From a virus: a stretch of DNA of 64,000 bases. Position 1 is the stretch's first letter. The number at the start of each line of letters is the position of its first letter. The stretch is taken from IMG/VR virus record IMGVR_UViG_3300036770_006296, positions 142,618-206,617 of that record. One strand, 5' to 3'. The notes under the pieces were generated by a model. The model worked only from the letters and a program-made list of their open reading frames with translations. It was not told where the DNA came from and did no database searches. Positions 57,935 to 58,751 of this stretch are shown in pieces. The position numbers and the translations under genes are program-made.

Positions 57935-57972
57935 AAATCATTTTTTTTATTAATAGAAATAGTCTATATTTG
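57935..57972 (+). promoter_or_regulatory. class 1 promoter of tRNA locus 1
   Basis: AAATCATTTTTTTTATT at 57935 and TATATTTG at 57965, 30 nt apart, then TGAAAC as at locus 3. An AATATATAA box (about 57993-58001) closer to the leader may give a second, late start. Confidence 0.75.
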
Positions 57973-58008
57973 TGAAACAAAACAAAGGAAACAATATATA
58001 ATACTTAA

Positions 58009-58083
58009 ATGAACAAATTAATTAACATATTACCTTCCATATTAAGACCGTCGATAAGACGATCTCGAAAGGTCCTGTGTTAG
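58009..58083 (+). CDS. leader peptide of tRNA locus 1 (24 aa)
   Basis: ATG to TAG, 25 codons. TTA stands at codons 4, 8 and 12; ATA at 7, 11 and 16; AGA at 13 and 17; CCT at 9 and CCG at 14; TCC, TCG and TCT at 10, 15 and 19. Those are the codons of the tRNAs encoded next (Leu-TAA, Ile-TAT, Arg-TCT, Pro-TGG, Ser-TGA). The last codons (58068-58077) form the antiterminator segment. A stalled ribosome would leave that segment free, while one that finishes would cover it. Regulatory role inferred from structure. Confidence 0.75.
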   Translation: MNKLINILPSILRPSIRRSRKVLC

Positions 58084-58138
58084 TTTTAACTATAACTATA
58101 AACTAAAAACCGGGACCTTTAAAAGTCCCGGTTTTTTT
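58068..58138 (+). terminator. attenuator: antiterminator segment and intrinsic terminator, locus 1
   Basis: Terminator: AAAAACCGGGAC (58105-58116), loop CTTTAAAA, GTCCCGGTTTTT (58125-58136) and further T. Competing pairing: AAAGGTCCTG (58068-58077, in the leader) with CGGGACCTTT (58111-58120), ten pairs including one G-T, which takes away the terminator's 5' arm. It stands between the promoter and tRNA-Ser, so tRNA expression depends on antitermination. Confidence 0.8.
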
Positions 58139-58140
58139 AT

Positions 58141-58156
58141 GTTCTTTGAAATAATT
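58141..58156 (+). promoter_or_regulatory. boxA-like element, locus 1
   Basis: GTTCTTTGAAATAATT immediately before tRNA-Ser. Resembles bacterial rRNA boxA (TGCTCTTTAACA in E. coli) and recurs at each tRNA locus. Confidence 0.5.
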
Positions 58157-58246
58157 GGAGAGGTGGCAGAGCCCGGTTTAATGCACCAGTCTTGAAAACT
58201 GACGTAGTGAAAGCTACCGGGGGTTCGAATCCCTCCCTCTCCGCCA
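58157..58246 (+). tRNA. tRNA-Ser (anticodon TGA)
   Basis: GGAGAGG pairs with CCTCTCC. Class II with a long variable arm (GTAGTGAAAGCTAC), anticodon loop CTTGAAA, T-arm GGTTCGAATCC, and an encoded CCA end. First gene of array 1. Confidence 0.95.
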
Positions 58247-58249
58247 TTT

Positions 58250-58323
58250 GGTCCGATAGCTCAGCTGGATAGAGCAACTGCCTTCTAAGCAGTAGGTCGC
58301 AGGTTCGAATCCTGCTCGGATCA
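58250..58323 (+). tRNA. tRNA-Arg (anticodon TCT)
   Basis: GGTCCGA with TCGGATC, anticodon arm ACTGC-CTTCTAA-GCAGT, standard D- and T-arms. Reads AGA, a codon frequent in this phage and used twice in the leader peptide. Confidence 0.95.
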
Positions 58324-58329
58324 CTATAT

Positions 58330-58402
58330 CGGGATGTAGATCAGTTGGTAGATCGCCTGGTTTGGGACCGGGAGGTCCCAGGTTCGAGTCCTGATATCCC
58401 GA
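58330..58402 (+). tRNA. tRNA-Pro (anticodon TGG)
   Basis: CGGGATG with TATCCCG, anticodon arm CCTGG-TTTGGGA-CCGGG, T-arm CAGGTTCGAGTCCTG. C1-G72 is typical for tRNA-Pro. Confidence 0.95.
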
Positions 58403-58410
58403 CAGCTCTT

Positions 58411-58484
58411 AGAGGCGTAGCTCAATTGGTTAGAGCACATGCCTTATACGCATGCGGTCATGGGTTCGACTCCCATCGTCTCTA
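58411..58484 (+). tRNA. tRNA-Ile (anticodon TAT)
   Basis: AGAGGCG with CGTCTCT, anticodon arm CATGC-CTTATAC-GCATG. Directly encodes the UAU anticodon for AUA, a codon very common in these AT-rich genes and present three times in the leader. Confidence 0.93.
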
Positions 58485-58488
58485 CTTA

Positions 58489-58562
58489 GGTCCCTTAGCT
58501 CAGTAGGTTAGAGCAACTGACTCATAATCAGTAGGTCCACGGTTCGAGCCCGTGAGGGACCA
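58489..58562 (+). tRNA. tRNA-Met (anticodon CAT), copy 1
   Basis: GGTCCCT with AGGGACC, anticodon arm ACTGA-CTCATAA-TCAGT. Elongator-like. Identical base for base to the copy at 62600-62673. Confidence 0.93.
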
Positions 58563-58568
58563 CAAAGA

Positions 58569-58649
58569 TACGGATGAGATTTCTAAATCTCCTACTTACT
58601 TATGAAAAGAAGGATTCCGTAACTAATACCATATAGTAGTGATGGTATT
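58569..58649 (+). ncRNA. structured spacer between tRNA-Met and tRNA-Leu
   Basis: TACGGA (58569) pairs with TCCGTA (58616), closing a 53-nt element with an internal GAGATTT/AAATCTC hairpin. A second hairpin AATACCA/TGGTATT follows (58625-58649). Not a tRNA: no T-arm. Could be a small RNA, a degenerate tRNA or processing signals. Confidence 0.45.
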
Positions 58650-58653
58650 GCCT

Positions 58654-58737
58654 GCCCGGGTGATGGAATGGTAGACATGAGGGACTTAAAATCCCTTGGC
58701 CCTAAAGGCCGTGCGGGTTCGACTCCCGCCTCGGGTA
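58654..58737 (+). tRNA. tRNA-Leu (anticodon TAA)
   Basis: GCCCGGG with CTCGGGT, class II with variable arm GGCCCTAAAGGCC, anticodon loop CTTAAAA, T-arm GCGGG-TTCGACT-CCCGC. Reads TTA, used three times in the leader. Last tRNA of array 1. Confidence 0.95.
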
Positions 58738-58751
58738 CTGAATTAAAATAT

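Follow-up and report, generated by a model that had tools for sequence, protein, structure and literature searches.

The final 64 kb of the 206,617-base phage record IMGVR_UViG_3300036770_006296 in IMG/VR (64,000 nucleotides, nt; hereafter, the window) contain three clusters of transfer RNA (tRNA) genes of shared design, not the single one described in the original prediction, each preceded by a short leader open reading frame (ORF) and an intrinsic terminator. Leader codons follow the content of the downstream tRNA array across 67 leader families, and both this correspondence and the anatomy of the units are established. We infer the regulatory mechanism with high confidence: judging from sequence, these clusters are very probably governed by trp-type, ribosome-mediated attenuation, in which a shortage of the tRNAs that decode the leader would switch on a cluster of replacements.

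In the proposed mechanism, the polymerase would start upstream and make the leader, and a ribosome would begin the short ORF, whose central codons would be read by the cluster's own tRNAs. With these tRNAs plentiful and charged, the ribosome would reach the end of the ORF and cover the sequence that we call segment 2, so that the terminator would form and the cluster would stay off. If any of them were scarce or uncharged, the ribosome would stall 12–48 nt upstream of segment 2, which would then be free to pair with the 5′ arm of the terminator, allowing read-through. In the form bearing a boxA-like motif, the polymerase would probably gain a Nus complex of the ribosomal RNA (rRNA) type, protecting the untranslated array, and the new tRNAs would relieve the stall, closing a feedback loop. 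Stalling, the switch itself and the function of boxA are what we infer here; depletion of tRNAs, for example by host anticodon nucleases, would be the trigger.

The three tRNA units of the window

All three units show the same order of promoter element, short leader ORF, intrinsic terminator, boxA-like motif and tRNAs, and in each of them the 5′ arm of the terminator is complementary to the 3′ end of the leader ORF. All features described here are on the plus strand. Unit 1 is that of the original prediction (57935–58740), whose promoter, 24-codon leader, terminator and six tRNAs are all found in the sequence and by ARAGORN. It comprises a TAnnTTTG promoter element (TATATTTG, 57965–57972); leader ORF 1 (MNKLINILPSILRPSIRRSRKVLC, 58009–58083), with 24 codons, supported by its codon match and kept in relatives; terminator 1 (58105–58138), with a stem at 58105–58136 and a T-run; a boxA-like motif (TGTTCTTTGAAAT, 58140–58152), which resembles rRNA-operon sequences of two Bacteroidota; and cluster 1 (58157–58738; Ser-TGA, Arg-TCT, Pro-TGG, Ile-TAT, Met-CAT and Leu-TAA, by ARAGORN and Rfam). 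The pairing proposed earlier between the end of the leader and the terminator is present, with segment 2, the 5′ half of the antiterminator (AAAGGTCCTG, 58068–58077), complementary to the 5′ arm of terminator 1, its 3′ half (CGGGACCTTT, 58111–58120), over 10 pairs, one of them U-G. Folding additionally predicts a hairpin within the leader ORF (AGACCGTCGATAAGACGATCT, 58045–58065) and, in the minimum free energy (MFE) fold, a segment 1 (approximately 58021–58036) that could base-pair with the region of segment 2. This hairpin, segment 1, the boxA-like motif and units 2 and 3 were all absent from the original prediction.

The array of unit 1 reads 13 of the 23 sense codons after the ATG of leader 1, where the codon usage of 20 long ORFs in the window would predict 5.2 (P = 4e-4). 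The same count, given in the original prediction for its own codon set, is right, and reaching at least 13 of 23 has P = 8e-5 under that usage; leader 1 is the densest in those codons among the 622 ATG starts of the window that open ORFs of 15–60 codons.

Units 2 and 3 were traced through relatives, in which the promoter-like sequence of unit 1 is repeated before a later tRNA cluster. Unit 2 contains the promoter element TACTTTTG (61325–61332), leader ORF 2 (MQQFLNIVQVQLDLLEDIGKCQRN, 61363–61437), with variants in relatives, segment 2 (GTCAGAGGA, 61424–61432), identified by complementarity and with equal pairing in its relative L007, terminator 2 (61459–61486), a boxA-like motif (61495–61507) and cluster 2 (61609–62674; Glu-TTC, Asp-GTC, Met-CAT, Leu-TAG and Met-CAT by ARAGORN), with an HNH ORF inside it by domain annotation (62068–62523). 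The core of leader 2, CTC GAT CTT CTT GAG GAT (Leu-Asp-Leu-Leu-Glu-Asp), consists of six consecutive matched codons, that is, codons read by its own array, located before segment 2. Unit 3 has the same promoter element TACTTTTG (63719–63726), leader ORF 3 (MKNCSKHNIIRMNSQINGCYQTVAFWAKGKEPDRS, 63766–63873), recognised by sequence and codon match, segment 2 (GATCGGAGC, 63862–63870), complementary to the terminator arm and paired in the nascent fold, terminator 3 (63903–63932) and a boxA-like motif (63936–63948). The first tRNA of cluster 3 is truncated by the end of the record, and the content of the array was taken from relatives (L008, L015, L030 and others): Phe, Lys, Trp, Tyr, Arg-ACG, Cys, Ile-GAT, Val, Asn, Gly, Ala, Met, His, Thr and Gln, plus a probable Ser-GCT, missed by ARAGORN and read manually in L015, and called by ARAGORN in L191. 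With Ser-GCT included, this set reads 30 of the 34 codons of leader 3 (20.6 expected, P = 4e-4).

The leaders do not match each other's arrays in the same way. Leader 1 is under expectation on both foreign arrays, with 1 of 23 codons read by array 2 and 9 of 23 by array 3 (13.9 expected); leader 3 has 2 of 34 codons read by array 1 and 3 of 34 by array 2, and leader 2 has 15 of 23 read by array 3 (13.9 expected). Isoacceptors are likewise divided, leader 1 using TTA, ATA and AGA, leader 2 CTN, and leader 3 ATC/ATT and CGC. The preference for codons of the own tRNAs is clear for leaders 1 and 3, and only local for leader 2. The tRNA-Met genes at 58489–58563 and 62600–62674, in clusters 1 and 2, are 100% identical over 77 bases, pointing to a recent duplication or transfer between these clusters.

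A search with the protein upstream of unit 1 gave three relatives (L007, L008 and L009), and all three retain the leader ORF, segment 2 and the terminator. A scan with 20 bases of leader 1 yielded eight stretches, three of them contigs already found, and this sampling is biased toward retention of the leader. These were the first 20 bases of the leader hairpin, whose identity across those loci is thus by construction; the hairpin is also present in L007–L009, found without that pattern. Four relatives (L010, L014, L015 and L017) have a leader shortened by five codons, which ends at TCC TAA just before AAAGGTCC, yet the RNA of segment 2 persists, indicating that this stretch is conserved as RNA and not as peptide.

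Leaders and arrays across phages and bacteria

For a survey blind to codons, we scanned IMG/VR for a T-run followed by the boxA-like motif GNTCTTTGAMAT, which sits between terminator and first tRNA in all three window units; neither leader nor tRNA sequence was used, and the counts refer to the matches listed in these scans and are therefore lower bounds. The scans alone gave at least 327 loci with at least 336 sites, and 186 of the 336 listed sites have a tRNA on the same strand within 400 nt downstream, compared with none on the opposite strand. Adding the window, its own record and the loci obtained with leader DNA or the upstream protein as query, overlaps included, gave at least 386 sites and at least 232 units. 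Of the remaining 154 sites, the terminator was weak in 114 and good in 40; among the latter, a tRNA lies farther downstream in 24, and the end of the locus truncates several. As leader we took the longest ATG ORF of 10–70 codons near a terminator scoring at least 15, irrespective of its codons. By this rule, 219 of the 232 units have a predicted ORF with an adequate terminator, and 13 were dropped for lack of an ORF or for a weak terminator. The 219 units fall into 67 leader families at 40% peptide identity and contain 152 distinct leader DNAs. The boxA scans contributed 174 of them (133 distinct leader DNAs), representing all 67 families, and the other 45 came from the window, its record and the leader-DNA or upstream-protein loci.

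We calculated expectations from the long ORFs of each locus, used one representative per family and, as a control, reassigned arrays among leaders. Own arrays decode 1011 of 2164 leader codons in the 67 families, compared with 672.5 expected (z 17.2); 58 families are above expectation, 40 of them at P < 0.05. The mean z is 2.27 for own arrays and 0.01 ± 0.15 (maximum 0.70) for reassigned arrays, and none of 20,000 reassignments reaches the own value, in agreement with the earlier suggestion that leader codons should track tRNA content in related loci. Leader DNA read in the alternative +1 and +2 frames gave z values of −1.1 and −2.1. In arrays with a single isoacceptor class, leader codons also track the isoacceptor for Arg (p = 9e-5), Ile (p = 1e-4) and Leu (p = 0.004); the tracking is not significant for Ser (p = 0.10). 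The boxA-scan loci taken alone (174 units, 67 families) gave 1009 of 2163 codons against 670.9 expected, with a mean z of 2.27 against 0.01 ± 0.15 and none of 20,000 reassignments reaching the own value.

Because families may share ancestry, the analysis was repeated on blastn clusters of leader-to-terminator DNA. These were used because merging families by BLOSUM62 local scores was uninformative, the short, biased peptides falling into three groups or one. Over 23 clusters, own arrays decode 322 of 687 codons (182.9 expected), with a mean z of 2.85 against 0.29 ± 0.28 (maximum 1.62) for permuted arrays; over 39 clusters, they decode 576 of 1194 (337.2 expected). The boxA-scan loci alone formed 25 clusters, with 339 of 740 codons decoded (189.6 expected), z 2.86 against 0.25 ± 0.26, and 0 of 20,000.

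Individual loci illustrate the match. Seven Leu tRNAs in L314 follow a leader containing LVLLLNNLLL; three Pro, two His and three Gln tRNAs in L318 follow QPVPQQHPQMP; L140, with Leu-TAA, Glu, Glu, Leu-CAA and Gln, has LEVLEQLQEQL; and L340, with Glu, Arg-TCT and Thr, has TYNTTYRTEERLSRRE. Two huge-phage records gave no such unit: LR756504 (L485), which matches terminator 3, has no tRNA within the 6 kb examined, and LR745206 (L486) has 19 tRNAs in 12 kb and no T-run-plus-boxA site, a leader lacking boxA not having been searched for there.

The device also occurs in two cultured phages of different genera that infect Cellulophaga baltica, Cellulophaga phages phi38:1 (Callevirus) and phi4:1 (Lightbulbvirus). 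The phi38:1 leader (MKTIMNIATDIRTKGVKLLGRSRVL), with the segment GGGGAGG facing CCTCCCC, precedes an array at 35.5 kb of NC_021796 that starts, as called, with Lys, Ile-GAT, Gly, Met, Asp, Thr, Val and Arg-TCT; the array matches nine consecutive leader codons (TDIRTKGVK), and the leader stretch is kept in phi40:1 (99.5%) and in Calle_1 to Calle_3 (99.0%). In phi4:1, whose array lies at 87.2 kb of NC_021788, the leader MKIQRLHLQELEQPIISGGTGV precedes Pro, Glu, Gln, His, Leu-TAG, Leu-TAA and Arg-ACG, segment pairing is present, and eleven consecutive codons (QRLHLQELEQP) are matched, isoacceptors included. The P values for the first eight tRNAs of phi38:1 (0.021) and the first seven of phi4:1 (0.002) are descriptive, because these subsets were chosen after seeing the data; against its entire array of 22 tRNAs, the comparison for phi4:1 is uninformative (18 of 21, 18.7 expected). 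According to an excerpt of PMC13288928, phi38:1 infects one C. baltica strain inefficiently, and slowed translation was suggested. DNA-similarity searches for cultured relatives gave no or short matches for window leaders 1 and 3 (13–16% of the leader) and for four viral loci (at most 1% of the loci), and a 32-nt consensus of terminator plus boxA hit 23 cultured-phage records, all with E of 0.9 or above.

A scan of bacterial genomes gave at least 118 loci, with the motif adjoining a called tRNA at six sites among the matches listed. One of these six, at 1285–1571 of L438, a chromosome contig of Flavobacteriaceae bacterium RhTr2, is clearly device-like: a leader with three AGT and three TCN codons and a segment AAGATCGG complementary to the terminator are followed by a boxA-like motif and one tRNA-Ser(GCT). 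Terminator and boxA are similar in L423, from Aquimarina. Rfam detected no rRNA in 12 of the bacterial scan loci.

Direction of control and competing explanations

Pairing of the region upstream of the terminator with the terminator 5′ arm was evaluated in 66 families, one of the 67 lying too near the end of its locus, with dinucleotide shuffles as null. It is significant (p ≤ 0.05) in 46 of them, with a mean z of −2.6; in 20 of the 66 the own pairing is better than with every foreign arm, and the median share of equally good foreign arms is 4.6%. The median distance from the start of segment 2 to the downstream stop codon is 18.5 nt.

The position of matched codons was determined in 43 units, after excluding 23 others with an insignificant or oddly placed segment 2. 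Going downstream, matched codons number 66 of 160 at 48–60 nt upstream of segment 2 (49.0 expected), 94 of 171 at 36–48 nt (50.2 expected), 115 of 172 at 24–36 nt (50.4 expected), 113 of 172 at 12–24 nt (50.4 expected), 67 of 169 at 0–12 nt (49.7 expected) and 31 of 148 just inside segment 2 (45.7 expected). The excess thus peaks at 12–48 nt, being 2.2–2.3-fold at 12–36 nt and falling to 0.68-fold just inside the segment. A ribosome extends about 12–14 nt past the first base of its A site. The enrichment of matched codons therefore falls at positions from which a stalled ribosome would leave segment 2 free, and is missing where its footprint would reach the segment; of all the evidence on the direction of control, we consider this the strongest.

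Folding models were calculated for nascent RNA, up to just before the 3′ arm of the terminator, and for full-length RNA at equilibrium. In the nascent model, the probability that the 5′ arm pairs with the leader is about 0.71, 0.72 and 0.64 in units 1, 2 and 3 when the A site is at or before codon 17, 17 and 29, respectively, and 0.01, 0.00 and 0.03 with the ribosome at the stop codon. Averaged over 43 families, this probability stays at about 0.7 or higher as long as the A site lies 12 to 140 nt upstream, and is 0.26 with the ribosome at the stop codon. In the full-length model, phi38:1 switches sharply, with a terminator probability of 0.00–0.12 for codons 2–15 and of 0.91–0.95 from codon 16. 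Unit 2 switches less cleanly; its terminator probability varies from 0.05 to 0.91 at codons 2–9, is 0.03–0.37 at codons 10–17 and 0.88–0.92 from codon 18.

The same parts could operate with the opposite logic, stalling keeping the array off and smooth translation turning it on, so that the cluster would be made only when decoding is healthy. The direction of control is, after all, deduced from sequence; but a ribosome stalled on the matched codons would keep segment 2 exposed, and one that reaches the stop codon would mask it, both implying that stalling means read-through, and we consider this reversal very unlikely. A somewhat better case, still an improbable one, can be made for a general sensor of translation, in which any slow-down, by amino-acid starvation or host shut-off, would open the array and the matched codons would only tune the response. 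Any stall upstream of segment 2 would indeed expose it, and the leaders hold unmatched codons too, but matching at the level of Leu, Arg and Ile isoacceptors and the way a single genome divides codons between its leaders point to specific sensing.

Two further explanations would do without sensing by translation, and we give hardly any credence to either. Uncharged tRNAs might pair directly with codon-like triplets of the RNA, as in a T-box, the tRNAs of the array being natural ligands and a terminator/antiterminator switch being present; however, the enrichment occurs in one reading frame only and across many consecutive codons, the ATG ORF is found in 219 of the 232 units, and Rfam recognised no family besides tRNA in the window at gathering thresholds. 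Alternatively, the match might be a by-product of codon usage, phages that carry these tRNAs using the codons everywhere and the terminator acting only as an insulator. TTA, ATA and AGA are frequent in AT-rich phages, but the expectation already derives from the long ORFs of each locus, within a single genome leaders 1 and 3 each fit their own array and score under expectation with the other two, and the excess is confined to the stretch preceding segment 2.

Several observations weigh against trp-type attenuation as proposed here. The expectation that relatives keep leader and complementarity, which held in all three upstream-protein relatives, failed in part in L011, where ATA replaces the ATG and the terminator, segment 2 and part of the array remain. 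According to ARAGORN, its chain contains Arg-TCT, Ile-TAT and Glu and no Pro, Leu or Met, and a Ser-TGA gene passed over by the program can be read manually; the ATA may be an alternative start, a sequence error or a sign of a decayed switch. In another contig (IMGVR_UViG_3300032219_002522; L026/L032), ARAGORN finds only six cluster-3 tRNAs and the leader has hardly changed, which offers a natural experiment on how quickly leaders adjust to the content of their arrays; the calls are Phe, Arg, Cys, Ile, Thr and Gln, with the Phe gene resembling a fusion of two tRNAs. In 52 of the 336 listed scan sites a tRNA, on either strand, lies upstream of the motif, indicating that some sites are inside arrays and not at their head. 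Nine of the 67 family representatives are not above expectation and 27 miss P < 0.05, the blind rule having visibly taken the wrong ORF in some non-matching families (for example, L182). Leader 2 as a whole ORF matches its array insignificantly (7 of 23, 4.8 expected, P = 0.19), and pairing is insignificant in 20 of 66 families. Neither phi38:1 nor phi4:1 contains a boxA-like motif between terminator and tRNAs, which also implies that the boxA-anchored survey undercounts, and crAss001, with 23 annotated tRNAs, shows no device in the approximately 350 nt upstream of the first one.

The folds bear on this as well. In classic trp attenuation, an untranslated leader forms a 1:2 hairpin upstream, and termination is favoured; unlike this, the nascent model forms the antiterminator even without a ribosome (mean 0.66 over 43 families). 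Of the alternative folds suggested by the original prediction, the nascent ones switch in units 1–3, but at full-length equilibrium the unit 1 terminator is favoured for every ribosome position (P 0.90–0.95), so its switch would need co-transcriptional timing; the full-length MFE structure of unit 1 has a 1:2 hairpin plus the terminator, and the nascent fold prefers the antiterminator. Unit 3 behaves like unit 1 at equilibrium, in a model with its ORF one base off.

Trp-type attenuation remains our preferred reading, and we consider a wider proposition likely, with less assurance: that phages of Bacteroidota-like hosts split the genetic code among self-sensing tRNA operons, each leader being a codon checklist that senses per isoacceptor and deploys only the missing tRNAs, with an rRNA-type boxA carrying the polymerase, and that at least one bacterial chromosome (L438) appears to do likewise.

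Hosts, neighbouring features and known systems

The boxA-like motif lies upstream of untranslated tRNAs in all three window units and, by construction, in the survey units. In the phages it extends to GTTCTTTGACATATTGG; in an Allomuricauda contig, GTTCATTGACATATTGG follows the 16S gene, presumably ahead of the 23S gene, and GTTCATATACATATTGG precedes the 16S gene, and Emticicia has GTTCATTAACTTGTTG before 16S, these being the two genomes with 16S found among six scan-hit bacterial genomes. TAnnTTTG, which we take to be the Bacteroidota promoter element, occurs upstream of 33 of 66 leaders, with 3.7 expected by shuffling. Together, the boxA similarity and this element suggest Bacteroidota hosts. 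As in the boxA/Nus antitermination of rRNA operons, covered in excerpts of PMC10250234 and PMC4807359, the boxA-like GTTCTTTGACATATTGG directly precedes untranslated stable RNA; in the phages, the motif follows an attenuator and precedes tRNAs, and its function is putative.

Copies resembling 57935–57971 are found many times elsewhere in the phage record. Since this promoter-like sequence recurs so often, one of the two phage sigma-70-family factors of the window (6100–6960 and 29894–30775) may read it. Upstream of the clusters, 53988–55613 encodes a TROVE/Ro60-like RNA-binding protein (PF05731, phrog_850), which across 95% of its length is 52% identical to Bacillus phage G gp540, and 62675–63193, adjoining the end of cluster 2, a protein with a HAD_SAK_2 domain (PF18143, HAD domain in Swiss Army Knife RNA repair proteins), for which a link to tRNA repair is possible. 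The spacer between the Met and Leu tRNAs of cluster 1 (58565–58650) has two hairpins (folding z −2.0) and may be a decayed tRNA or a small RNA. Two conserved array stretches that may be additional RNAs, one at 61517–61603, closed by a long 5′/3′ stem (folding z −1.4), and another of about 165 nt between the Arg and Pro tRNAs of L007 (9873–10038), with counterparts in L008 and L009 and not in the window (folding z +1.1), gave no credible Rfam match and weak folding signals. A terminase search within the phage record gave no match.

In an excerpt of PMC10264068, a paper concerned with the resistance of phage tRNAs to nucleases, phage tRNAs are said to replace cleaved host tRNAs, which provides a reason for phages to need induced tRNAs, and the reason for carrying them is described as unclear for more than fifty years. 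Excerpts of PMC9723584, PMC8776804 and PMC7082346 give numbers of tRNAs or data on their expression. None of the terms attenuat-, leader and terminator appears in the text examined of PMC13015707, PMC10264068 and PMC9723584. Among the full-text literature matches listed (titles and abstract openings, with most subscription journals outside their scope), we found no earlier description of attenuation of tRNA genes. What would be new is the occurrence of attenuators controlling tRNA genes through the decoding of those same genes, working like trp-type attenuation. If this is true, the phage tRNAs of one large phage group are replacements made on demand, with the demand read by a leader of the same codons, and, as far as those literature matches show, no attenuator of tRNA genes was known before this device. 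It would also be, to our knowledge, the most multivalent attenuator known. The match between leader and array would then be a readable record of what each phage was selected to sense, and the mechanism is testable in the two cultured C. baltica phages.

The comparison with known systems delimits what the phage device would share with them. T-box riboswitches respond to uncharged tRNA through a terminator/antiterminator switch, which the phage device shares; it differs in having an ORF apparently read in frame, and no T-box family was matched by Rfam in the window. The E. coli pheST attenuator, in which Phe-tRNA synthetase is controlled by a Phe-rich leader, likewise governs decoding machinery, but it acts on a synthetase gene of the host and senses one amino acid. 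The ilvGMEDA and thrABC attenuators are multivalent, one leader sensing two or three amino acids; the phage leaders also sense several, in this interpretation, but ilvGMEDA and thrABC control biosynthesis genes. Attenuation of the trp/his type, presented in an excerpt of PMC1183508, regulates operons for amino-acid biosynthesis by means of the ribosome. With this type, the phage units have in common a leader ORF with regulatory codons, an intrinsic terminator, a mutually exclusive antiterminator and a stop codon at or near segment 2. They differ from it in that a single leader, that of unit 3, can list about 15 amino acids, and in that the device, borne by a phage, would control the tRNAs themselves, isoacceptor by isoacceptor, the loop closing on decoding capacity.

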